In this document: piece by piece, positions 3,861 to 29,250 of the stretch
Layout of the letters: the number at the start of each line of letters is the position of its first letter
Numbering within the stretch: position 1 is the stretch's first letter
From: Eucommia ulmoides
Taxonomy: Eukaryota > Streptophyta > Magnoliopsida > Garryales > Eucommiaceae
Direction: 5' to 3'
Length of the DNA: 64,000 nucleotides
NCBI GenBank assembly: GCA_016647705.1
Contig: CM028338.1
Coordinates: 17,319,577-17,383,576, forward strand
Translations under genes and position numbers: made by a program
Notes under the pieces: model-generated
Databases searched by the model: none
Seen by the model: the letters and a program-made list of their open reading frames with translations, nothing else
Told to the model about the DNA's origin: nothing

Positions 3861-5139
3861 AATGTCCTGTTGCATAGTTTTGTCTTATTGTATAGGACAA
3901 AATGATAGAATTGTAAATATGAATTAATAGTTAGGAGTAATATTAAAGATTTTTTTTCTAAAGATTCTATGTAGACTAAAAACTTATTTATTTGAATTGG
4001 ATGTCTATTCTATAGATTCATCATCTTTTGAGGACCAAAAACTTAATTACCCTTTAATTTTTTGTTTCAAAGTTGTGTGAACAATCGCACTAGCATATAT
4101 TGTATTATGAATCTGCACATTTTCAATATTTATACTCAAACAATAATCACATCAGTGAGATATATTTGACAACATTTCAATGTTATGAATGTTCACACTA
4201 TTTCGAAACAATAAATAAAACCAAATTTAATACTGATTACCAATGTAAATATTCACACTAGTATTTCAATAGCTGTGAATATTCAGGAGGAGAAATGTAA
4301 AACAAAACTAAAAAAAATAAAAATAAATTAAAACTAAAACCCAAAAATGGGGAAAATATAATTTACAGTCCGTAAGTCCAACCAAACCCATATATGCGGC
4401 TAGTTCTTCTTGAGACTTGGATACGACTAGTTCTTCTTGAGACTTATATATGGGGCGAGTCTTCTTCAGTTCCATGGCTGCTCGTCGGCGATGATGACTC
4501 CCGTGGAGGCGTCCGACTTGCCTAAAGACACAACGACGTCAGATACGGTTGGCGTTGATTTGGACGACGTCGATTGTGGACGGCAATGGTGATAGGACTG
4601 TAAATTTAGGCAGCAAGTTTCGAATCTGGGCAGCAACAACAGCGGCGATGGTGGTAGAGGTTGTGGATCTGGGCAGCAACGGTGTTAGTGGACATTAGCA
4701 GCCTGGGCAGCAACGACGACGGGATAGAACCTTTTTTTTTTTTTCGTACAGAATATGAGAAATAGGAAAAGGTGATAGACGAGATTCGCCGATGCAAAAA
4801 GCTTTGACTGATCAGAATGAGTCCAATTGTGAAGTTCAAGTTCAAAAACCCTTCTTTGTCTTTGCAAACTGATCAGAATAGTTCCGGCGTAGAGAGAAAG
4901 ATTAAGTTTAGGAACCTTTGGCCTATAATGAACTTTCGATTCAGGTCTCATGATTTTAGGGAGAGTAATAATGTCAGCTATTGGTATTTTATGAATCATG
5001 TCATGGGTGACTAATTTCTACATAATTTTTTATAATGGTTTTTTTACTAACCTAAATATTTAATTGGTTTTTTTTACTAGAGTAACTCTTAAGTTAGGTT
5101 CAAATAATAAAAATCTATTAAATTTTTTAGCCAAGTATA
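3861..5139. other. intergenic DNA, no gene recognised
   Basis: AT-rich sequence. A short direct duplication, CTAGTTCTTCTTGAGACTT, occurs at 4399 and 4427. The GC-richer part 4450-4730 has repeated GATCTGGGCAGCAAC-like phrases similar in style to the copia leader at 58020-58450; that link is an inference only. Confidence 0.4.
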
Positions 5140-5149
5140 TTTTTCTTTA
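5140..5149 (+). repeat. left target-site duplication of the MULE (TTTTTCTTTA)
   Basis: TTTTTCTTTA here is repeated perfectly at 17953-17962, immediately outside the inverted termini GAGTTGTTTACC and GGTAAACAATTC. A 9-10 bp duplication is the class signature of Mutator-like insertions. Confidence 0.88.
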
Positions 5150-5470
5150 GAGTTGTTTACCTATTAAATATTAAAAAAAAAAAAATTACTGAATGAGAAT
5201 AGTTTTTAACTTATTTACGTGAATAATGCATTTTGCCCTTGTGAAGGGCGAAATCGAAATTTTTTTTTTTTTTTTATCCCGCGCTTGTGAACAGCGGGAT
5301 CAAAAAAAATTAATTTAATTTGATCCCGCCCTTGTGAAGGGCGGGATCACCAAACGGCGACCAGCCGTTTGCTTTGGCCGGTCAAACGACCGGCCAAAGC
5401 TGCAAAGAAGGCAGTCTAAAAAGGCTGCCTTCTCCCCTTTTTTTTTTTTGCAAAGAAGGCAGGCTATTTT
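5150..5470 (+). repeat. left terminal inverted repeat with hairpin array
   Basis: Six palindromes follow one another: 5231-5254 (core GCCCTTGTGAAGGGC), 5276-5301, 5322-5348 (perfect 27-bp GATCCCGCCCTTG/GGGCGGGATC type), 5351-5371 (AAACGGCGACCAGCCGTTT), 5371-5400 (13-bp perfect arms, GCTTTGGCCGGTC, loop AAAC) and 5407-5432 (GAAGGCAG/CTGCCTTC). A/T runs separate several of them. The same set appears in reverse order at 17561-17870. Confidence 0.9.
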
Positions 5471-5542
5471 TTTTTTATAGGTATAAGTATAGGTTTAGCT
5501 TTAATTTGAAATTTTAAAATCTCGATATATGTGCACAATTTC

Positions 5543-5680
5543 GCCTATAAATATCACTTACCGGATTTCATTAAAATTCACTCTTCTTCATTTACTCCTT
5601 CTCTCATTTGTTCTTCATTTTGATATTTTTTTGTTCTAGTTACACTTCTTCTATTCAGATTTCTATTCCTTTATTCACAG
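5543..5680 (+). promoter_or_regulatory. left-arm promoter and 5' untranslated exon
   Basis: CCTATAAATATCAC (5543-5556) is a good plant TATA box. About 30 bases downstream begins a pyrimidine-rich leader that ends in TATTCACAG followed by GTTAGTAT at 5681, a good splice donor. The same TATA, leader and donor occur inverted at 17515-17380. Promoters inside MULE terminal repeats are known from maize MuDR. I infer that transcription from here runs into the transposase gene at 8789. Confidence 0.7.
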
Positions 5681-8600
5681 GTTAGTATATTTTTAACGTT
5701 TTTTTTAATTTATTTGTTAATTTAATTAGTATATTTTTTACCTTTATTTGTTAGTTAGTTGGTTAGTTTAATTTGTTAATTTAATTGTTGAATTAAAAAT
5801 TATACTTTGGTCATTTTCACATGTTTAAGAAAATATAAAATAATATATTATTTCAAAAAAAAATGTTAGTTAGTTAGTTTAATTTTTTACTCTAGCTATT
5901 TAATTAAAAAAATATGCACTTTGACCCCCTAAAAGTATAACAACTAGAAAAATATAAATTTTTAATATATTATTTTAAATTAAATTATTAGTTAGTTTGT
6001 TTGTTTTGTTAATTTAATTTGTTGGTTTAGTTGTTTAATTAGTTGGTTAGTTTAATTTGTTAATTTAGTTGTTAAATTAAAAATTACACTTTGTCTCCTT
6101 TCACATGTGTAGAAAAATATACACTTTGGCCCCTGAAATTTTTTCAATTACAAAAATATAAAACTTTCAACCTATTGTTTTAAAATAAATTGTTAGTTAG
6201 TTTCATTTTTGAATTTTGTTATTTAATTTAAAATGTATTTATTTAATTTGTTAATTTAGTTGTTAAATTAAAAATTACACTTTCGCCCCATGTGTACGAA
6301 AATATAAATCAACATATTACATTTTTAGTTAGTTTAATTTTCTAATTTAGCTATTTAATTAAAAATACACTTTGGCCCCTGAAATTTTGATAATTAGAAA
6401 AATATAAAATTAAAATACCTATTATTTTGTTTAATTTGTTAATTTAGTTGTTAAATTAAAAATTACACTTTCGCCCCGTTCACATGTGTAGGAAAATATA
6501 AATCAACATATTAGATTTTTAGTTAGTTTAATTTTGTAATTTAGCTATTTAATTAAAAATATACACTTTGACCCCTTAAATTTTGATAATTAGAAAAATA
6601 TAAAATTAAAATACCTATTATTTGTTTAATTTAGTTGTTAAATTAAAAATTACACTTTCGCCCCTTTCACATGTGTAGGAAAATATACACTTTGGCCCTT
6701 GAAATTTTTTCAATTAGAAAAATATTAAATATTCAACCTATTGTTTTAAAATAAATTGTTAGTTAGTTTCATTTTTTAATTTTGTTATTTAATTTAAAAT
6801 GTATTTATTTAATTTGTTAATTTAGTTGTTAAATTAAAAATTACACTTTCGCCCCTTTCACATGTGTACGAAAATATACACTTTGGCCCTTGAAATTTTT
6901 TCAATTAGAAAAACATTAAATATTCAACCTATTGTTTTAAAATAAATTGTTAGTTAGTTTCATTTTTTAATTTCGTTATTTAATTTAAAATGTATTTATT
7001 TAATTTGTTAATTTAGTTGTTAAATTAAAAATTACACTTTCGCCCCTTTCACATGTGTACGAAAATATACACTTTGGCCCTTGAAATTTTTTCAATTAGA
7101 AAAATATTAAATATTCAACCTATTGTTTTAAAATAAATTGTTAGTTAGTTTCATTTTTTAATTTTGTTATTTAATTTAAAATGTATTTATTTAATTTTGT
7201 TAATTTAGTTGTTAAATTAAAAATTACACTTTCTCCCCTTTCACATGTGTACGAAAATATAAATCAACATATTACATTTTTAGTTAGTTTAATTTTGTAA
7301 TTTAGCTATTTAATTAAAAATATACACTTTGGCCCCTTAAATTTTGATAATTAGAAAAATATAAAATTAAAATACCTATTATTTGTTTAATTTAGTTGTT
7401 AAATTAAAAATTACACTTTCGCTCCTTTCACATGTGCAGGAAAATATACACTTTGGCCCTTGAAATTTTTTCAATTAGAAAAATATTAAATATTCGACCT
7501 ATTGTTTTAAAATAAATTGTTAGTTAGTTTCATTTTTTAATTTCGTTATTTAATTTAAAATGTATTTATTTAATTTGTTAATTTAGTTGTTAAATTAAAA
7601 ATTACACTTTCGCCCCTTTCACATGTGTACGAAAATATAAATCAACATATTACATTTTTAGTTAGTTTAATTTTCTAATTTAGCTATTTAATTAAAAATA
7701 CACTTTGGCCCCTGAAATTTTGATAATTAGAAAAATATAAAATTAAAATACCTATTATTTTGTTTAATTTGTTAATTTAGTTGTTAAATTAAAAATTATA
7801 CTTTCGCCCCGTTCACATGTGTAGGAAAATATAAATCAACATATTACATTTTTAGTTAGTTTAATTTTGTAATTTAGCTATTTAATTAAAAATATACACT
7901 TTGGCCCCTTAAATTTTGATAATTAGAAAAATATAAAATTAAAATACCTATTATTTATTTAATTTAGTTGTTAAATTAAAAATTACACTTTCGCCCCTTT
8001 CACATGTGTAGGAAAATATACACTTTGGCCCTTGAAATTTTTTCAATTAGAAAAATATTAAATATTCAACCTATTGTTTTAAAATAAATTGTTAGTTAGT
8101 TTCATTTTTTAATTTCGTTATTTAATTTAAAATGTATTTATTTAATTTGTTAATTTAGTTGTTAAATTAAAAATTACACTTTCGCCTCTTTCACATGTGT
8201 ACGAAAATATAAATCAACATATTACATTTTTAGTTAGTTTAATTTTCTAATTTAGCTATTTAATTAAAAATATACATTTTGGCCCCTGAAAAGTTGATAA
8301 TTAGAAAAATATAAAATTAAAATACCTATTATTTGTTTAATTTGTTAATTTATTTTATTTTTTGAATTTCGTTATTTAATTTAAAATGTATTTGTTTAAA
8401 CTTATATAAAAGAATTTTTGGTTAGTTTATTAAACTTGTTATATTGGTAAGTAAAATGTTAAGATTGAAAATAAATTACTGAAATCCATAAAAAATTTAC
8501 ACTACAAACATTGGAATATGATGTACAAATTGTGCACTTTCATTCCTCAAATTAATTGAATCTATTTAGTTGATATTAGCTTGACGTGGAATTTATATTC

Positions 8601-8779
8601 GATTTAGAGTTAAAGTTAAAATAATTATTGAATAAATTCAAAATAAGTAAAATATTAAGGATTGAAAATAAATTACTCTAACCCATAAAAAATGAACACT
8701 ATAAACCAACATACTTTTGTGATTGAGTTTTAGTTAACGATATTATTTTCTTGTTTTGTTTTGCCTTGTCAAATGATAG
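5681..8779 (+). repeat. predicted first intron filled with AT-rich tandem array
   Basis: Donor GTTAGT at 5681; candidate acceptor ATGATAG ending at 8779, nine bases before the ATG at 8789. From about 6080 to 8290 roughly a dozen units of about 190 bp repeat, alternating two inner variants (one with CAACATATTACATTTTTAG, one with CCTATTGTTTTAAAATAAATT). Each unit carries TTACACTTTCGCCCC followed by TTTCACATGTGTA, and most carry ACACTTTGGCCC. No coding potential. 8340-8760 is unique AT-rich sequence. Confidence 0.75.
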
Positions 8780-8788
8780 CCGCTTGAA

Positions 8789-10683
8789 ATGGATCACGTT
8801 CGATTGTTATTGTATTGGGGTGGTAGAATATTGGAAGGTACGGAGTTCGGGGTTTGTTATAGTACATCAGTTGTAAAATCTTTGGTTGTCCGTAGGGGAA
8901 CAAGCTTAAATGAATTAATTGAGACGCTAAAACCATGTGTTCTTGAAGATGGGGTTACTGGAATTTTGAAACTAAAGTATAGGATGCCGATGGCTCTTTT
9001 CGGGTCGAACTATAAATATACCTTGTTTTCTATCGAGGATGACTCAACATTAAACCAAGTGCTTGAGTTACCTCTTTATATACCCTCCCTTCTTGCTGTT
9101 GAAGTATATGTAGAGATAGAACGGGCATTTGATGATGGTCCAAATTTTTTTCCCCCAAGTGGTCATTTTACCAACTTAATGACCCAGAGTTTAAATCCGT
9201 ACAGTACCCAATCTGACGGACAATTTTTCGGCACCGTTCCCCAAGCAGTCCAATCTAATTACACCATCCCACCCCTTACAGTCTAGAACAATATCATTCC
9301 CACAATACTCCTATGTTGCACCCCCAATTACTTGAGTCTAATTACACCGTCCCACTCCCCTATATTCCAGAGCAAGATTATTCTCATAGTATGATTGACC
9401 GTGGTCATGGCACCAGCTCTGCTCTTCCACATCCCCATTATTCATCGAATAGTCCGCCGCAAGATAACATAAGTAATTATGGTGGTGACTTTGATACAAT
9501 TGATAGTCGCGACGATGTGTCAGAAGAAGAGTTCGATGCGGATTTTGCGTTTTAGCCAGACGAAGATCTAGATGCTGGGCCTAGCGGGCAAGGGGGTGAA
9601 AATCAGCAATTGGAGTTAGACAATGTAATTTCATTTTTCAATAACTTGGAATGGGGTGACGACGATGACTTGGCGAAATACGAGCCGAAGTTGCGGAAGA
9701 ATTTTTGGACACCGGAGATGGACGAATTCCGTACTGGTATGATCTTTAAGGACAAGGAACATCTCCAGCAGGCCGTCAAATTTTACCACTTGAAAAAGAA
9801 CAAAGAGTTTTATGTCTCGCAAACGAACAAGAAGCTCTGGTCGATTAATTGTTCGCATGGATGCGATTGAATGTTGCGGGCGGGGAGGAAAAAAAGTCAC
9901 GGTATGTTTGAGATTACACAGTATGAGGGGCAACACACATGTTTCTATAATCATACTGCTGTAGATCATAAAAATTTGGATTCTGCACTCATTTCGAACC
10001 TAATACTTGGACAAGTAGAACAGGATCCAGAATTGAAGATTGGCGTCATTGTGGCTTACGTGAAGGAGGCTCATGGATACACTATCTCCTATAGAAAAGC
10101 TTGTTTGGCTAGATCTAAAGCCATTGAGACCTTGTTCGGAGATTGGGATGAATCATACCGGAAGTAACCGAAGTTTATGGTCGCGTTGCAGCACTACAAT
10201 GCAGGTACGATTATCGAGTGGAGCACTGTGTCGACTGATATGCCTAACTATAGGATGTTCGACATGGTATTTTGGGCATTCAAAGCTTCAGTCGACGGAT
10301 GGCGTTATTGTCGCCCTGTAATCACCATTGACGAGACCCATTTGTATGGTAAATATGATGGAAAGATTTTAATCGTCATAGGAATGACGTCGTCCAACCT
10401 TGTATGTTGTTTGAGAAATCTTAATGCACCAGTTCCGCATCGTCGAAGTCTTCAGATGCCTCGACGATGTATAATTGATGACACAACCGAGATTGAAGAT
10501 GCTATTACACGAATTCGCCTGGAGAATAATCGAATGTTGTTGCGCAGAAATAGATATTATCTACTACAACTAGCCAATGAAATGGCTGCCGCAAGCAACA
10601 GAGCACTCTCTCCAAACGAATACCATAACGTGATAAATAACAATGAATATTTGTCTGAGGGGTACATGTCGAATGAAGAATAA
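8789..10683 (+). pseudogene. mudrA-like MULE transposase, decayed and internally deleted
   Basis: The ATG at 8789 opens an N-terminal PB1-like region (RRGTSLNELIETLKPCVL). Then comes a linker with repeated NYT(I/V)P segments, an acidic stretch (DDVSEEEFDADF), a MuDR-type DNA-binding module (FKDKEHLQQAVKFYHLKKNK, then CSHGCD and a GQHTC segment, about 9740-9950), and the start of the MULE DDE domain (ITIDETHLYGKYDGK near 10325-10365, containing the first catalytic Asp). Beyond about 10395 the rest of the DDE core and the SWIM zinc finger are missing; the frame continues into a tail ending at 10683. Damage: a one-base shift near 9260-9286, then in-frame stops TAG 9553, TGA 9868 and TAA 10165 in one otherwise continuous frame. 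The product would have cut and joined element ends in the nucleus. It is not functional as it stands. Confidence 0.88.
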
Positions 10684-11121
10684 TTAATTTTTTGCTCTGG
10701 TATTTTATTTTGGAGTGTTTTTATTGTCACTATTTTTATGATATTATGTACTGTATTTCTTATATACTGTCTTTGTTATGAGTTTTGTAACAAATATCGT
10801 TAAATTTGTTTCCGTCTATGTAATATTTTTTTAATATAATATTTATGATTATTTTAACTTTAATCGCCTTTAATATTATACTGTTACGAGTTGTTTTGCC
10901 TTTTTAAGAATCTTTCTGGAATGTTAGACACATTGCTCGATCTCCCATTCAAATTCTGTATCTATTTGCGAAGCAATATATACGGTACATCAACAACTTT
11001 CTAAATCTCCAGACGTTACAAAAAAATGTATTTACTAACTACATAAATTACTATATAACTATATATTTACAAAAAAAATGTATTTACATTTCTATAACTA
11101 AACTATCAACTACATAACTAA
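10684..11121. other. AT-rich region between convergent 3' ends
   Basis: Separates the stop of the transposase remnant (10681-10683) from the stop of the PMD gene (11122-11124). It must hold the 3' ends of both transcripts. No further gene is seen and I could not single out a confident polyadenylation signal. Confidence 0.6.
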
Positions 11122-13522
11122 TTATGTACCGCAAGGCCTCCGACGGACGTTCCTCCGCCCTCGTCGTTGTGCAACAGGAGGTTCCTCAGCCTCCTCATGA
11201 ACTTGTGTAACTTGTCCGAAGTTCGTGAACGCCTGATGCATACTCCCCGGGATAGCATCGACGTCGTCCTCGAACCACAGCACCGGCGACACTTGTCTTT
11301 GCAATCTTGTGGGTTCGGCAAATGCCACCGGAGGAATGATGCCTGAAGTTGAAATAAATTCATCCATCTCCGGAGTGACGAATGACGATGACGGGTGTGT
11401 ACCTAGCTGCGATGTGTAATACGAATAAGGGTCATGCATCTGGTACACGTTGGATGGCCCAGCATCGTCACCCATGCCGTACGAACTAGATGATTCGGCA
11501 TGAGCGCCCATGCCGTACGTACTAGATGATCCGGCATAAGCGCCCATGCCGTACGATGTAGAAGGTTCGGCATCGCCCACACTACCTGGACGATAGGCAT
11601 CAGAAGTCCATGGCTGAGGAGAAGGCTGAGGAGCAGCCTGAGGAGATGAAGGAACGTCAGCTGCCATATGGCGTGGTACTCCTCGATACATCCTCCCAAT
11701 GGTGCCATCATTGATGGCATGAGCCAGCTCGATACCCGATTCTGCAGTACCGGACCGCAGGGTTAGATCACTCAAGCGTATCAAGTTTGATACCTCCGTA
11801 TCCTACAAAACACATAAATTGGTTTAATTAATACATGAATAATAACAACATAATCTAACTCATATAACTAAACAGATGGTACAGTCAATGTGATCATACA
11901 TCTAATCCCAGTCGTCCTCCTATTGGTAGATACCCAAACTGAGGTTGGTACGCCGGGTTGACCAAAAATCTTCGTGTGATTCACTAATACCAATCTATGT
12001 ATTCTTGGTCAACCCCTATCCCTTGCTCAAAATTGCCGACATCTGGTGCTTGCCGATTATTCCACGCAACTATATGTGCATGGTGATGGTCAGCCCAGTT
12101 TGCACGGAAGTATCCTCGCCGAGTAATTTTGTGCAAGTTCCTGTCCCACATTACCGGTTCAGGAACCCCTTGGTGATAACCAAACTTTCGTAGCACGCGG
12201 AGGGGATACGTGTACTCGACAATCTCATAGCATATTAGGGGCAACTTTGCCATCCAAATATCTTCTCCATCTTTAGTATATGGAGGCAAAGTCGGCAAGG
12301 TATAGGGCATCCAAATGACCTGTAAAATAAAATATAAACAAACAAATAAAAAAATTAAAATTTCGATATAAGTAAATAAATAACCTCGTCATTCTTCAAG
12401 CGATCTAACTGATCGCGATACACCACCAAAATATGCATCGGCAAATTATCCAAATTAAATTGAAGAGTCCACCTGTACACCAAAAATATAAATCATAAGT
12501 TTAATATCTATAAATAAATATCTATTACATGATAAATGAAATTAAAAATAAAATACTAATTACTTACCAAGAACCCCTCGGAGCAGTTGGGAACTTCAAG
12601 TCGCCACCGTAGTCGAGCTCTCCGAATAATATATTATAGTCGGGGAGAGGGACTGCTTCAGGCCGAAGCCTTGGAAATCGCTCCCAAGCCCAACACTCCA
12701 ACAAAAATAGGCACCCGGCAATGTGTTTCGTGTTGGGCTTCGTCGCCTTACAGAGCTCGCGGTAGAGGATCGCTAGGGTCGCACTGCCCCAGCTATACTT
12801 GACAAAAGGTGTCAAGTCACGCAGCAGTAGGAGGTAGGCTAACTTAACTCTGTTGTGTGATTTATCAGAAAACAACATCTCACCAAGCATAAGCAAGCAA
12901 TATGCACGTGCGTAGCAATGCATAACCTCCTCGTCGGCCTCGTCAGGAACTATAGCAAAGGTATCCCGTAACCACTTCAGCGTCAAAGACCCATTCCTAA
13001 TCTTATCCACTGGTGGTTGCACTCCGAGTAGCTCACCGCAGAGTCTCTGCCAGACGGTATCCTCATGCGAGTCATCATTCTGGATAACTGGCAACCCATG
13101 CACGGGTAACCCCAATAAGACGATCACGTCCTGCAATGTGACAGTCATCTCCCCGACAGGTAGATGGAAAGTGTGCGTCTCCGGACGCCATCTCTCTACC
13201 AACGCGGTTATGAGGGCCCTATCTAACCGCTTCGGCCACAACCTAAATGGGCCGTACAAACCGACTGATTCTATTAACTGTATAACTCTAGGGGGGACAT
13301 TTTCTCTCCATTCCCCTACATCGTGTCCAACACAGTCAAAAGTATTGATATCCCGAAATATTTAATAAGACATAATAAATAACATTAAAAAATTAAAAAA
13401 CTTAAATAAAAAAAAAACAAATGCAATAACCTAAATGTTTACCTGCGCTAACCAAACTAGTTCGGACCTGTGCTGTCCCTGTTGGTGTAGAACTGAAGTA
13501 TCTTCAGGCCCAGGATGTATAG
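11122..13522 (-). pseudogene. Plant Mobile Domain (PMD, MAIN-like) gene carried by the MULE
   Basis: The spliced minus-strand model has five coding exons: 13522-13443 (HPGPEDTSVL, HRSELVW), then about 13350-12566 (ETHTFHLPVGEMTVTLQD, VLLGLPVHGLPV), 12472-12385, 12319-11900 (TYPLRVLRKFGYHQGVPEPV, then ITRRFLVNP) and 11802-11122 (Ser/Pro/Tyr-rich tail with three YGMG-type repeats, ending RRGRRNVRRR). Donors and acceptors at 12472, 12385, 12319, 11900 and 11802 fit GT/AG and keep frame. PMD proteins (MAIN, MAIL1) are nuclear and act with the phosphatase PP7L in silencing and gene expression; PMD genes are also known inside MULEs and gypsy elements. Defects: the expected start reads ATA (13520-13518), two adjacent in-frame stops lie at 11986-11981, and no AG acceptor of correct phase is visible for exon 2. 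Probably a pseudogene, though most of the domain is well preserved. Confidence 0.85.
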
Positions 13523-16500
13523 CTGAAATTTTTCCCCACAACACTCGTGGTAAATTTGTTAGTACGAAATTAAAATTTAATCATATTTATAAACAAAATA
13601 TAAGATTCATTATAAAGAAATGTGCGCGACAAGTGCATAAAATTTATAATACATAAAAGTTGACATAACAAAAAAATAAAGTAGCATAAACATTCATTAC
13701 AATAAACCGACAAGATCAATTGGGTGCAAGGCAGGGTCGGGATGGACATTTTCGCCTATCAAAATTTAACAACTAAATTAACAAATTAAACAAATAATAG
13801 ATATTTTAATTTTATATTTTTCTAATTGTCAAATTTTCAGGGGCCAAAGTGTATATTTTTAATTAAATAGCTAAATTAGAAAATTAAACTAACTAAAAAT
13901 GTAATATGTTAATTTATATTTTCCTACACATGTGAACGGGGCGAAAGTGTAATTTTTAATTTAACAACTAAATTAAACAAATAATAGGTATTTTAATTTT
14001 ATATTTTTCTAATTATCAAAATTTAAGGGGCCAAAGTGTATATTTTTAATTAAATAGCTAAATTAAAAAATTAAACTAACTAAAAATATAATATGTTGAT
14101 TTATATTTTCCTACACATATGAAAGGGGCGAAAGTGTAATTTTTAATTTAACAACTAAATTAACAAATTAAATAAATACATTTTAAATTAAATAACGAAA
14201 TTAAAAAATGAAATTAACTAACAATTTATTTTAAAACAATAGGTTGATATTTAATATTTTTCTAATTGAAAAAATTTCAAGGGCCAAAGTGTATATTTTC
14301 GTACACATGTGAAAGGGGCGAAAGTGTAATTTTTAATTTAACAACTAAATTAACAAATTAAATAAATACATTTTAAATTAAATAACGAAATTAAAAAATG
14401 AAACTAACTAACAATTTATTTTAAAACAGTAGGTTGAATATTTAATATTTTTCTAATTGAAAAAATTTCAAGGGCCAAAGTGTATATTTTCCTACACATG
14501 TGAAAGGGGCGAAAGTGTAATTTTTAATTTAACAACTAAATTAAACAAATAATAGGTATTTTAATTTTATATTTTTCTAATTATCAAAATTTAAGGGGCC
14601 AAAGTGTATATTTTTAATTAAATAGCTAAATTAAAAAATTAAATTAACTAAAAATGTAATATGTTGATTTATATTTTCCAACACATGTGAAAGGGGCGAA
14701 AGTGTAATTTTTAATTTAACAAGTAAATTAACAAATTAAATAAATACATTTTAAATTAAATAACGAAATTAAAAAATGAAACTAACTAATAATTTATTTT
14801 AAAATAATAGGTTGAATATTTAATATTTTTCTAATTGAAAAAATTTCAAGGGCCAAAGTGTATATTTTCCTACACATGTGAACGGGGCGAAAGTGTAATT
14901 TTTAATTTAACAACTAAATTAAACAAATAATAGGTATTTTAATTTTATATTTTTCTAATTATCAAAATTTAAGGGGCCAAAGTGTATATTTTTAATTAAA
15001 TAGCTAAATTAAAAAATTAAACTAACTAAAAATATAATATGTTGATTTATATTTTCCTACACATGTGAAAGGGGCAAAAGTGTAATTTTTAATTTAACAA
15101 CTAAATTAACAAATTAAATAAATACATTTTAAATTAAATAACGAAATTAAAAAATGAAACTTACTAACAATTTATTTTAAAACAATAGATTGATATTTAA
15201 TATTTTTCTAATTGAAAAAATTTCAAGGGCCAAAGTGTATATTTTCGTACACATGTGAAAGGGGCGAAAGTGTAATTTTTAATTTAACAACTAAATTAAC
15301 AAATTAAATAAATACATTTTAAATTAAATAACGAAATTAAAAAATGAAACTAACTAACAATTTATTTTAAAACAATAGGTTGAATATTTAATATTTTTCT
15401 AATTGAAAAAATTTCAAGGGCCAAAGTGTATATTTTCCTACACATGTGAAAGGGGCGAAAGTATAATTTTTAATTTAACAACTAAATTAAACAAATAATA
15501 GGTATTTTAATTTTATATTTTTCTAATTATCAAAATTTAAGGGGCCAAAGTGTATATTTTTAATTAAATAGCTAAATTGAAAAATTAAACTAACTAAAAA
15601 TGTAATATGTTGATTTATATTTTCCTACACATGTGAAAGGGGCGAAAGTGTAATTTTTAATTTAACAAGTAAATTAACAAATTAAATAAATACATTTTAA
15701 ATTAAATAACGAAATTAAAAAATGAAACTAACTAATAATTTATTTTAAAACAATAGGTTGAATATTTAATATTTTTCTAAATGAAAAAATTTCAAGGGCC
15801 AAAGTGTATATTTTCCTACACATGTGAACGGGGCGAAAGTGTAATTTTTAATTTAACAACTAAATTAAACAAAAAATAGGTATTTTAATTTTATATTTTT
15901 CTAATTATCAAAATTTAAGGGGCCAAAGTGTATATTTTTAATTAAATAGCTAAATTAAAAAATTAAACTAACTAAAAATATAATATGTTGATTTATATTT
16001 TCCTACACATGTGAAAGGGGCGAAAGTGTAATTTTTAATTTAACAACTAAATTAACAAATTAAATAAATACATTTTAAATTAAATAACGAAATTAATAAA
16101 TGAAACTAACTAACAATTTATTTTAAAACAATAGGTTGATATTTAATATTTTTCTAATTGAAAAAATTTCAAGGGCCAAAGTGTATATTTTCGTACACAT
16201 GTGAAAGGGGCGAAAGTGTAATTTTTAATTTAACAACTAAATTAACAAATTAAATAAATACATTTTAAATTAAATAACAAAATTAAAAAATGAAACTAAC
16301 TAACAATTTATTTTAAAACAATAGGTAGAATATTTAATATTTTTTTAATTGAAAAAATTTCAAGGGCCAAAGTGTATATTTTCCTACACATGTGAAAGGG
16401 ACGAAAGTGTAATTTTTAATTTAACAACTAAATTAAACAAATAATAGGTATTTTAATTTTATATTTTTCTAATTATCAAAATTTAAGGGGCCAAAGTGTA

Positions 16501-17379
16501 TATTTTTAATTAAATAGCTAAATTACAAAATTAAACTAACTAAAAATGTAATATGTTGATTTATATTTTCCTACACATGTGAACGGGGCGAAAGTATAAT
16601 TTTTAATTTAACAACTAAATTAACAAATTAAACAAAATAATAGGTATTTTAATTTTATATTTTTCTAATTATCAAAATTTGAGGAGCCAAAGTGTATTTT
16701 TAATTAAATAGCTAAATTAGAAAATTAAACTAACTAAAAATGTAATATGTTGATTTATATTTTCGTACACATGGGGCGAAAGTGTAATTTTTTATTTAAC
16801 AACTAAATTAACAAATTAAATAAATACATTTTAAATTAAATAACAAAATTCAAAAATGAAACTAACTAACAATTTATTTTAAAACAATAGGTTGAAAATT
16901 TTATATTTTTGTAATTGAAAAAATTTCAGAGGCCAAAGTGTATATTTTTCTACACATGTGAAAGGAGACAAAGTGTAATTTTTAATTTAACAACTAAATT
17001 AACAAATTAAACTAACCAACTAATTAAACAACTAAACCAACAAATTAAATTAACAAAACAAACAAACTAACTAATAATTTATTTTAAAATAATATATTAA
17101 AAATTTATATTTTTCTAGTTGTTAAACTTTTAGGGGTCAAAGTGCATATTTTTTTTAATTAAATAGCTAGAGTAAAAAATTAAACTAACTAACTAACATT
17201 TTTTTTTAAATAATATATTATTTTATATTTTCTTAAACATGTGAAAATGGTCAAAGTATAATTTTTACTTCAACAATTAAATTAAAAAATTAAATTAACC
17301 AACTAACTAACAAATAAAGGTAAAAAATATACTAATTAAATTAACAAATAAATTAAAAAAATGTTAAAAATATACTAAC
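13523..17379 (-). repeat. predicted first intron of the PMD gene, right-arm tandem array
   Basis: On the minus strand a donor (CACAG then GTTAGTA) lies at 17380/17379 and an acceptor TTTCAG at 13523. Between about 13740 and 17340 some seventeen units of about 190 bp run in the opposite orientation to the left array, with the same two alternating variants and the same CACATGTG-bearing segment. The span 13530-13740 is unique AT-rich sequence. Confidence 0.75.
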
Positions 17380-17515
17380 CTGTGAATAGAGGAGTAGAAG
17401 TCTGAATAGAAGAAGTGTAACTAGAACAAAAAATATCAAAATGAAGAACAAATGAGAGAAGGAGGAAATGAAGAAATGTGAATTTTAATGAAATCCGGCA
17501 AGTGATATTTATAGG
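17380..17515 (-). promoter_or_regulatory. right-arm promoter and 5' untranslated exon
   Basis: On the minus strand CCTATAAATATCAC (about 17515-17503) is followed by a leader ending at 17380 in CTATTCACAG and the donor GTTAGTA. It is a near-identical inverted copy of 5543-5680. I infer it drives the PMD gene. Confidence 0.7.
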
Positions 17516-17560
17516 CGAAGTTGTGCACATATACCGAGATTTCAAAAATTCAAATTCAAA

Positions 17561-17952
17561 AGGCTGCCTTCTTTGCAGCTTTGGCCGGTCGTTTGACCGG
17601 CCAAAGCAAACGGCGACCAGCCGTGGTAACGGCTGGTCGCCGTTTGTTGATCCCGCCCTTCACAAGGGAGGGATCATATTTTAAAAAAAAAAAAAAATTT
17701 CATTTGATCCCGCCCTTGTGAAGGGCGGGATCAAATAAAAAAAAAAAATTATTGATCCCGCCCTTCGCAAGGGCGGGATCAAATTAAATTAATTTTTTTT
17801 GATCCCGCTGTTCACAAGTGCGGGATCAAAAAAAAAAAAAATTCGATTTCGCCCTTCATAAGGGCGAAATGCATTACTAATGTAAATAAGTTAAAAACTA
17901 TTCTCTTTCAGTAATTTTTTTTTTTTTTTAATATTTAATAGGTAAACAATTC
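17561..17952 (-). repeat. right terminal inverted repeat with hairpin array
   Basis: Palindromes at 17578-17607 (13-bp arms, loop GTTT), 17608-17645 (17-bp perfect arms, loop GGTA), 17649-17675, 17706-17732 (perfect 27-bp type), 17754-17780, 17801-17827 and 17847-17870. Order and sequence mirror the left array, with one extra GATCCCGCCCTT-type hairpin and a longer version of the AAACGGCGACCAG hairpin. A/T runs separate the units. Confidence 0.9.
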
Positions 17953-17962
17953 TTTTTCTTTA
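17953..17962 (+). repeat. right target-site duplication of the MULE (TTTTTCTTTA)
   Basis: Perfect copy of 5140-5149, directly abutting the inverted terminus at 17952. Confidence 0.88.
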
Positions 17963-18452: not shown

Positions 18453-18535
<83 letters not shown>

Positions 18536-23886: not shown

Positions 23887-25624
23887 TGGTGGCCGCTAAT
23901 TAAGCGCTGCCACTTTCGCCGTAAGCGTACGGATCAAGTTTTAATATAATGGACATTTTAGTCAGGTATCGTATCCACAAGGATTGGTTGAGATTACTAT
24001 TGAGTACCGTGATTATCATAACTCGACTTTATCTAGGCGACAAAAAAGGAATATAAAATTAATACTAATACTAAAATACTAATTTAACTATACTAATTAC
24101 TAATACGAGATAGTTATGAGATGGATTATCTAGGGATTAACTTTATTTACTTAAACGTGTTTGATATCGTTTAGTTTACAATAATGGTATTCGACCTATT
24201 TGACAATCTCGGTATCTAAAACTCCTCCGCCACCTTTCCCGAGTGTAAGACAGAGGATGTAATGCAATTTCATGTCAATGAAGAAGTCCCCCTCAATGTC
24301 TTAACAATCCTAGGTTGCGTGAGTCTTGCCCAATCTCATTGATTGCACACAAAACCTCAGTTCGTAAACTCCATCGCCACCTCTTCCAAGTGTAATATGA
24401 GGGATATACCTTGACTTGGTGTCAACGAAGAATTCTCCCTCAACGTCTTAACGACTCTAGGTCACTTGAGTCTTACCCCAACGTCATTGATTTCATGCAT
24501 TGTGTTTACCCTATCGACAATTTCAGTTCTAAAACTCCATCGCCACCTCTTCCAAGTGTAAGACGAGGGAATACACGACTTCGAATCAATGAAGAAGTCC
24601 CCCTCAATGTCTTAATGACCCTAGGTCACGTGAGTCTTGCCCCAACGTCATAGATTGTCCATAATCCTAACGCCGACCGGGTTATTGGACCGTGGCGTTT
24701 GTTTATTCTAATCCAAATTTAGGATTTGTCAAACCCCGTATTCTTGATATATAAATCTAAGCGCAATAAACAAACAATATGATAAACACACTCAAACATT
24801 GAAGAACAATCATCAAAGAAATGCAACTAAACCAAAACTACGTTTTTATAAATAATATTCATCCAATACATAATCCACATTTAACCTAAGGCCATAGCCA
24901 TTTATACAATTGAAACTAGGCTAAACATGCTCAAACATACATAGAAGATAAGAAATAAAAGGAAAAACGGATGAACTTAGCCGATATCCAAAGATTATCT
25001 GGTAAAATCGTCCACCGAACAATTCTCCTTTTCAGCGTGTTGATCTTCTCCTTCGGATATGTTTGAGCACTCCCCATATTCTCTCTATATCTTAACCTAA
25101 GCCTTAAGAGTTGTAATGGCCAGAGGGAGTGAATGAGAAGGGAGGAAAGGGGTATAAATAGACAAAATATCTAAAATAAATATCTAACACTGCGCAAAGG
25201 CCACTGCTACGGCGGTGGAGTATGTCGGTTAAGGTTTGCCGCAGCGGTGGAGAAGGCGGTGGCTGTGGAAAACTTTCTGTTAGATTTTCGCCTAGGTGGT
25301 GGAATTTTTGCCTAGGCGATGGGTGATTTCCGCCTAGGCCGAAATCCAGCAAAAATTGGTTTTTCTTTGCATCTTTACTGCCTAGGCAGTTGTCTGGACA
25401 CCTAGGTTGTAGGCTTCCTTCAGATTTTTGCCTTTTTGCTCATTTTTCCACCGTTCTCCGACCGTTCTCGATACGAATTGATCGTTTATGCTCCGATTTC
25501 ATATCTTTTCACACCACGCTCCTGTTTTAATACAAAAAAAATAAAAACATATAAAAATAACTATAAACGTACTTGAAAACTAACAAATTCGGGTTGAAAA
25601 TATATAGGTAATTCACACCTATCA
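23887..25624 (-). repeat. left LTR (3' LTR) of the Athila-derived element
   Basis: Begins TGGTGGCCGC and ends CACCTATCA on the plus strand. Inside, three tandem blocks of about 150 bp carry ACTCCATCGCCACCTCTTCC and AAGTCCCCCTCAATGTCTTA (24211-24655). A TATA-like GGTATAAATAG lies at 25148-25158, and the GC-rich CCTAGG minisatellite at about 25190-25410. Confidence 0.9.
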
Positions 25625-27519: not shown

Positions 27520-29250
27520 TGGTGGTCGCTAATTAAGTGTTGTCACTTTCACCGCAAGCTTACGGATCAAGTTTTAGTATAATGGACCTTTCGGTTGGGT
27601 ATCGTATCCACAAGGATTGGTTGAGATTACTATCGAGTACCGCGATTATCATAACTCGACTTTATCTATGTGACAAAAAAGGAATATAAAATTAATACTC
27701 ATACAAAAATACTAATTTAACTGTACTAATTGCTAATACGAGATAGTTATGAGATTAATTATCTAGGGATTAACTTTATTTACTTAAACAGGTTTGATGT
27801 CGTTTAGTTTACAATAATGGTGTTCGACCTATTTAACAATCTCGATATCTAAAACTCCTCTGCCACCTCTCCCGAGTGTAAGACGGGGGGATGTAACGCA
27901 ACTTTGTGTCAACGAAGAAGTCTCCCTCAACGTCTTAACGACCCTAGGTTGCATGAGTCTTGCCCAACCTCATTGATTGCAAACAAAATCTTAGTTCGTA
28001 AACTCCATCGCCACCTCTCCTGAGTGTAAGACGAGGGATATAACGTGACTTCTGTCAACGAAGAAGTCCCCCTCAACGTCTTAACTACTCTAGGTTACGT
28101 GAGTCTCACCCTAACGTCATTGATTTCATGCATTGTGTTTACCCTATTGACAATCTCAGTTCTAAAACTCCCTCGCCACCACTTCCAAGTGTAAGAGGAG
28201 GGAATATGCAACTTCAAATCAACGAATAAGTCTCCCTCAATGTCTTAATGACCCTAGGTCACGTGAGTCTTACCCCAATGTCATAGATTATCCACAATCT
28301 TAACCTCGACCGGGTAATTGGACCATAGCGTTTGTTTATTCTAATCCAAATCTAGGATTTGTCAAACCCTGTATTCTCTATACATAAATCTAAGCACAAT
28401 AAACAAATAATATGATAAACACACTCACATATTGAAGAACAATCATCAAAGAAACGCACTAAACCAAAACTACGTTTTTATAAATAATATTCATCCCATA
28501 CATAATCCATGTTTAACCTAAGGCCATATCCGTTTATACAATTAAAACTAGGCTAAACATGCTTAAACATACATAGAATATAAGAAATAAAAAGAAAAAC
28601 GGGTGAACTTAGCTGATATCCGAAGATTAGCCACTAAAATTGTCCACCGAACGATTTTCGTTCTCCGCGTGTTGATCTTCTCCTTCGGATATGTTTGAGC
28701 ACTCCTCATACTCTCTCTATATCCTAACCTAAGCCTTAAGGGCTATAATGGCTGGAGGGAGTGCAGGAGAATGGAGGAAAGGGGTATAAATAGACAAAAT
28801 ATTTAAAATAAATATCTAACACTGTACAGAGGCCACCGCCGTGACGATTGGATTCACCGCTGTAGCGGTGGCTGTGGAAAACTTTCTGTTGGATTTTCGC
28901 CTAAGCAGTGGAATTTCTACCTAGGCGATGGGTGATTTTTGCCAAGGCGGTGGGATTTCTGCCTAGCAGAAATTGGTTTTTCTTTGCATCTTCACCGCCT
29001 AGGCAGAGGTATGGGAACCTAGGCGGTGGGATTCCTTCAGATTTTTGCCTCCTTGCTCATTTTTCACTGTTCTCCGACCGTTCTCAATACGAATTAATCG
29101 TTTATGCTCCGATTTTATACCTTTTCACCCCACGCAACTATTTTAATACAAAAAGAATAAAAACATATTAAAACATATAAAAATAACTATAAACATACTT
29201 GAAAACTAACAAATTCGGGTTGAAAATATATAGGTAATTTGCACCTATCA
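27520..29250 (-). repeat. right LTR (5' LTR) of the Athila-derived element
   Basis: Same layout as the left LTR: begins TGGTGGTCGC and ends CACCTATCA on the plus strand, with three ACTCC(A/C)TCGCCACC blocks at 27850-28290, GGTATAAATAG near 28782-28793 and the GC-rich minisatellite at 28830-29030. Confidence 0.9.

Follow-up and report, generated by a model that had tools for sequence, protein, structure and literature searches.

The 64,000-nucleotide stretch of Eucommia ulmoides DNA analyzed here (contig CM028338.1, positions 17,319,577 to 17,383,576; hereafter, the window) contains a 12.8-kb Mutator-like element (MULE) at 5150-17952, most of which is taken up by the interval under study (5543-17515). 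In each of its long terminal inverted repeats (TIRs), a promoter, an exon, a splice donor, and a tandem array follow one another in this order. We propose, with a probability of about two in three, that the promoter-leader of each arm is spliced over the array into a gene: the transposase gene on the left and a plant mobile domain (PMD) gene on the right. The order of the parts was observed directly, while the start of transcription and the splicing itself are what we infer from it.

According to this proposal, each TIR would supply a core promoter, an untranslated first exon of ~100 nt, and a 5' splice site ahead of the tandem array. The same promoter-exon module points inward from both ends, and RNA polymerase II would fire inward from each arm. 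On the left, the leader would be joined across ~3.1 kb of array to 8780, just upstream of the transposase ATG; on the right, it would be joined across ~3.9 kb to 13522, which is 2 nt upstream of the PMD ATG. The arrays would be 5'-untranslated region (UTR) introns that are kept out of the mRNA, and their length may drift with the mRNA unaltered. Since both mRNAs would share the leader, they would probably also share the same regulation.

Arms, leaders, and the element family

The features of the element (strand in parentheses) are as follows.

5140-5149 (no strand): target-site duplication (TSD), left copy TTTTTCTTTA, identical to 17953-17962
5150-8400 (+): left long TIR (outer palindromic part, promoter-leader, and tandem array with 191/378-bp units), recognized by arm-to-arm identity and tandem repeats; the inner limit near 8400 was set by eye
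5546-5553 (+): TATA box TATAAATA, left arm
5576-5680 (+): putative untranslated first exon (leader), left arm, ATG-free, 77% pyrimidine; the start at ~5576 is placed by TATA spacing
5681-8779 (+): putative 5'-UTR intron, 3,099 nt, containing the tandem array and 27 ATGs
8780-10683 (+): transposase gene remnant, ATG at 8789, with in-frame stops and most of the catalytic region lost (open reading frames (ORFs), sister copy)
11122-13522 (-): PMD gene (PF10536), five coding exons, delimited by eye from a 30-copy consensus (Pfam, 2.9e-60 and 5.1e-16)
13523-17379 (-): putative intron in the 5'-UTR of PMD, 3,857 nt, with 38 ATGs and the array
13571-13760 (-): inverted duplicate of the end of the transposase zinc-knuckle exon and the next intron; a second copy is in the sister element
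13771-17952 (-): right long TIR, inverted copy of the left TIR
17380-17484 (-): putative leader (untranslated exon 1) of PMD, right arm, ATG-free
17506-17513 (-): TATA box TATAAATA, right arm
17953-17962 (no strand): TSD, right copy TTTTTCTTTA

The blocks comprising the TATA box, leader, and donor (5543-5690 and, inverted, 17516-17371) aligned with 139 identities, 7 mismatches, and 2 gap columns, and the two arms were 97.5% identical over 1568 bp of the arm-to-arm alignment. Both leaders end at CAG/GTTAGT (5680/5681 and 17380/17379), and in each arm of two elements this was the sole donor that matched the consensus at 8 or more of 9 positions. The leader contained 77% pyrimidine versus 55% in the array, the tandem repeats of which span 6051-8343 in the left arm; segment-wise arm-to-arm divergence, in which the within-left rates were inflated by misalignment, was used only for this leader composition. 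Since the leader has no ATG, in contrast to 27 and 38 in the putative introns, an unspliced leader would be a poor messenger. The right-arm leader and donor were present in all 10 elements compared, with the donor unchanged, and the GT of the left-arm donor was kept in 8 of 8 loci (window counted).

The element is bordered by an exact 10-bp TSD and has the terminal sequences GAGTTGTTTACC and GAATTGTTTACC. It is a MuDR-type MULE, high in copy number and recently active, with foldback-style long TIRs. The TSD is within the range of the Mutator superfamily (~9-11 bp), and the transposase domains were found in the sister copy (L040 and L039): L039 showed matches to the MULE transposase (PF10551, 1.7e-17), MuDR DNA-binding (PF03108, 6.2e-08), and SWIM (PF04434, 2.3e-07) domains. 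As in MuDR, the second gene is convergent (transposase on the + strand, PMD on the - strand), and the long TIRs with internal tandem repeats, together with an arm-only derivative (L057), correspond to the foldback type. When the genome (947 Mb) was searched with the leader, a loose first look gave 1343 candidate places, and scoring of 40 of these yielded 41 near-full-length matches with 96-100% identity, window included. With the PMD query, the 40 scored among 852 candidates matched near full length at 97-100%. The MULE family is numerous and young.

Several features of the arms were observed in addition. The outer TIR parts (5220-5400 and 17640-17870) contain repeated small palindromes (GATCCCGCCCTTCACAAGGGCGGGATC and relatives), which form a ~47-bp tandem on the right side and differ in number between the arms. 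The derivative L057 (140-2563; G000:C5:25400700-25403400) is a gene-free family member of 2.4 kb, whose halves form an inverted repeat of 93% identity; a 10-bp TSD was recognized by eye.

Acceptors and the two genes

On the transposase side, the acceptor is TGATAG/CC: the intron ends at 8779 and the exon starts at 8780, 9 nt before the ATG at 8789. The stretch from acceptor to ATG was near-identical in seven aligned sequences, and the distance from the left donor to this acceptor varied between 2,382 and 4,283 nt across 10 elements, in eight of which the donor position was taken from the leader match. The gene itself is deleted and interrupted in the window: relative to the sister copy, ~2.3 kb (4963-7265 in the latter) is missing at ~10395, and a Pfam domain search with the four ORF pieces of the window copy detected no transposase domain. 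The transposase of the sister copy likewise has at least one stop. An extra ORF is located downstream of the latter (L039 3244-3714, - strand); its end resembles, by eye, the window frame at 10440-10683, and the two may be alternative 3' transposase exons.

On the PMD side, we aligned the 5' region of the window with that of 29 other copies (30 in total; the re-fetched window copy L009 was left out). The acceptor is TTTCAG/CT: the intron ends at 13523 and the exon starts at 13522, 2 nt ahead of the family ATG. The acceptor AG (13524-13523) and the ATG were each intact in 29 of the 30 copies, and, the two exceptions being different copies, both sites were present in 28. The right arm contains a single TACTAAC branch point (13564-13558); the branch A, which precedes the acceptor by 36 nt, was intact in 29/30, as was the GT of the exon-1 donor. 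The copy without the ATG is that of the window, where the start codon at 13520-13518 reads ATA, and this copy alone among the 30 also lost the exon-2 acceptor (13354-13353). Neither gene is, therefore, intact in the window, and this copy of the element is defective. The right intron measured ~2,900-3,860 nt in the window, sister copy, and six other elements, and ~2.46 kb in two more.

The preliminary description had reported near-identical inverted TATA boxes, leaders, and donors in both arms, with acceptors just before the transposase ATG and the PMD first exon; the motifs and both acceptors lie where it put them, the predicted introns have the lengths that it gave, and the same donor/acceptor layout recurs in the family copies compared from this genome. 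Its PMD first exon holds for the family, while the exon of the window has no start codon: the family acceptor had been picked from a copy whose start is gone.

The consensus PMD protein starts with MHPGPEDTSVL. Among the 120 homologues listed out of 965 found, five (P0008, P0034, P0051, P0069, and P0094) begin exactly at the matching residue, with MDPGP, MHPGP, MEPGP, or MDHGP; many of the 120 start 1-14 residues earlier, and some 16-150 earlier. The best by E-value include proteins from Genlisea, Penstemon, and Rehmannia (45-46% identity), all of which are Lamiales, and Oldenlandia (44%). For coding changes in exons 1-2, L032 and L038, which are unrelated in sequence beyond the query region, were removed from the 30 copies. 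The remaining 28 contained 63 distinct nonsynonymous (seven of them stops) versus 34 synonymous changes, a ratio 0.64 of the neutral one (one-sided binomial p = 0.025). Of these 28 copies, 21, including the window despite its lost start, had neither stops nor gaps when compared with the consensus, a count blind to insertions relative to it. These values suggest that a PMD protein was made in the transposing lineage. It may possibly act against silencing, by analogy with what Ikeda et al. speculated for PMD-bearing MULEs (PMC5418596).

The 190-bp fragment at 13571-13760 separates the right array from the PMD acceptor and contributes to the PMD intron, with TACTAAC at its edge. A PMD start at 13749, behind GATAG/GCGAAAATGTCC, was considered and dropped: it belongs to the inverted copy of the zinc-knuckle exon, and the family ATG is at 13520. 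A seemingly tenfold lower variation in the region 13356-13760 was also discarded as an artefact of the unrelated sequence of L032 and L038 outside the query region.

Outside the element, a pure (TA)39 microsatellite lies ~500 bp beyond its right end (18457-18534), and two separate two-copy tandem repeats, 24357-24656 (164 bp) and 27852-28125 (146 bp), have similar consensus units.

Weighing of alternative readings

The main competing explanation is that both genes start at internal promoters (the TATA at 8403, the TATA at 13591, or TATAAAAT in the array), the arm motifs being unused or producing non-coding RNA. In window-type copies, TATATAAAAG at 8403 is followed by GGTAAGT at 8447, and splicing from there to 8779 would drop the intervening ATGs; an unspliced transcript from 8403, however, would meet ATGs at 8456, 8518, 8521, 8692, and 8773 before the real start. 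Furthermore, this TATA was present in only four of 10 elements (window, C15:49, C4, and C7). It was absent, together with the GGTAAGT, from the other six (C62, C12, C8, C15:4.98, C6:36, and C2), in which the array runs directly into the shared 300 bp that end in the acceptor, and thus it cannot be the general promoter of the family. On the right, ~70 nt separate TATAAATA at 13591 from the PMD ATG, and the stretch in which it lies hardly varies among copies; a start ~30 nt below this TATA would meet no ATG before that of PMD, so that an unspliced start is possible there. This TATA is, however, inside the fragment copied from the transposase intron, and its use would leave TACTAAC and TTTCAG before the ATG without a purpose. 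TATAAAAT is repeated about once per longer array unit, which makes array-internal starts possible, also in elements without the TATA at 8403. Overall, we consider internal promoters to be unlikely, but the matches at 13591 and in the array count against the proposed splicing of the arm leaders.

A similarly improbable variant accepts an active arm promoter, with the leader joined via other, variable splice sites (the AG at 13757-13756, array-internal sites, or several short introns) or left partly unspliced. GATAG/GCGAAAATGTCC, which begins at 13760, is similar to the acceptor of the transposase gene, with an AG that was unvaried in 31 alignment rows (the window counted twice); in addition, MuDR transcripts are alternatively spliced (PMC3440606). 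The ATG at 13749, on the other hand, opens a frame of 59 codons that ends before PMD unless it is respliced, the stretch being a transposase exon fragment, and neither arm of the two elements examined has a second donor that matches at 8 or more of 9 positions. That the twin motifs reflect mere inverted-repeat symmetry, with chance matches in AT-rich DNA and no transcriptional role, appears very improbable. In shuffled arms, a TATA, an ATG-free interval of 80-250 nt, and a donor of this quality occurred in this order in 37/1000 (left) and 49/1000 (right) cases, values which are not independent because the arms are one sequence present twice. The PMD acceptor and branch point, however, are not part of the inverted symmetry and agree with the ATG of the other copies, and the pyrimidine-rich leader differs from the array.

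Other observations also weigh against splicing from the arm leaders. Donors as good as those in the arms were expected by chance at 0.51 (left) and 0.65 (right) per arm (300 dinucleotide shuffles per arm); the donor alone is not significant, and motif statistics by themselves are weak evidence. The donor has T at position +3, its +5 base was changed in one left arm (L008), and the left donor was mutated or lost in the arm-only L057. The pyrimidine tract at the PMD acceptor is weak, and the branch A and the AG were each missing in one of the 30 copies. Since the copies compared were picked by similarity and are mostly 97-99% alike, their agreement says little about constraint. A genome-wide search for spliced leader-transposase and leader-PMD junctions with two exact gapped patterns gave 0 hits; as plant retrocopies are rare and the search had no positive control, this result is neutral. 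The proposal that the arrays are giant first introns, made in the preliminary description, thus retains the acceptor beside the PMD ATG, the variable arrays, and the patchy occurrence of the TATA at 8403 in its favor; spliced copies did not come to light, and the splicing stands as a prediction.

Related systems and significance

MuDR of maize (mudrA/mudrB) has a Mutator transposase and two convergent genes that are driven by promoters, with start sites, within or close to both TIRs; these TIRs are ~215 bp long, and the second gene is mudrB (PMC3440606). In the element described here, Pfam identifies the second gene as PMD. PMD has also been captured in the PMD-C MULEs of several grasses and Amborella (PMC5418596), and PF10536 was found here at 2.9e-60. 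In those elements, PMD is described as fused to the transposase; in the present one, the two genes are separate and lie on opposite strands, and PMD would have a TIR promoter to itself. An anti-silencing use of PMD by MULEs was proposed by Ikeda et al. (PMC5418596). Abermu MULEs (barley and others) resemble the present family in their transposase, a convergent second ORF in many members, and high copy number, with a 9-bp TSD, but the TIRs of the barley element are 138-145 bp, and the text of that article makes no mention of 'plant mobile', 'PMD', or 'tandem repeat' (term counts of 0; PMC9168764). Mutator/Foldback elements such as Tm1 share a Mutator-type transposase and composite TIRs with tandem repeats (9-bp TSD in Tm1); Tm1 has a short repeat motif (~14 bp) and a nematode host, and the part of the article used describes no twin-promoter second gene (PMC3169594).

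Promoters in both inverted ends that drive convergent genes are, therefore, already known from MuDR. The preliminary description had singled out a mobile element that supplies a captured or partner gene with a second copy of its own promoter-intron module; both arms do carry the promoter, but as the arms are TIRs, its duplication is that of the TIR itself, and no new principle is involved. What appears to be novel is the untranslated first exon inside a TIR, the predicted role of the tandem array as a giant 5'-UTR intron, and a PMD gene that stands on its own and is convergent with the transposase. To our knowledge, MuDR has neither an array nor a giant leader intron. Among open-licence articles, judged by title and the start of the abstract, none reported a TIR-borne first exon spliced over arrays, which is a weak absence.

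If transcripts confirm the proposed splicing, one inverted promoter module would serve two genes, with large arrays kept out of both mRNAs, and the tandem arrays of foldback-type TIRs would gain a concrete function. More tentatively, and with less than even confidence, the long TIR may be a portable promoter-exon-intron module that expresses any coding sequence placed inside the arrays with an acceptor before it. If so, a MULE could express captured host genes such as PMD without fusion to the transposase, and the arrays would be free to vary in length or to act as intronic enhancers. Confirmed transcripts would also mean that a host silencing-related gene, PMD, can travel as an independent unit, and the published speculation on the anti-silencing use of captured PMD by MULEs would become directly testable.

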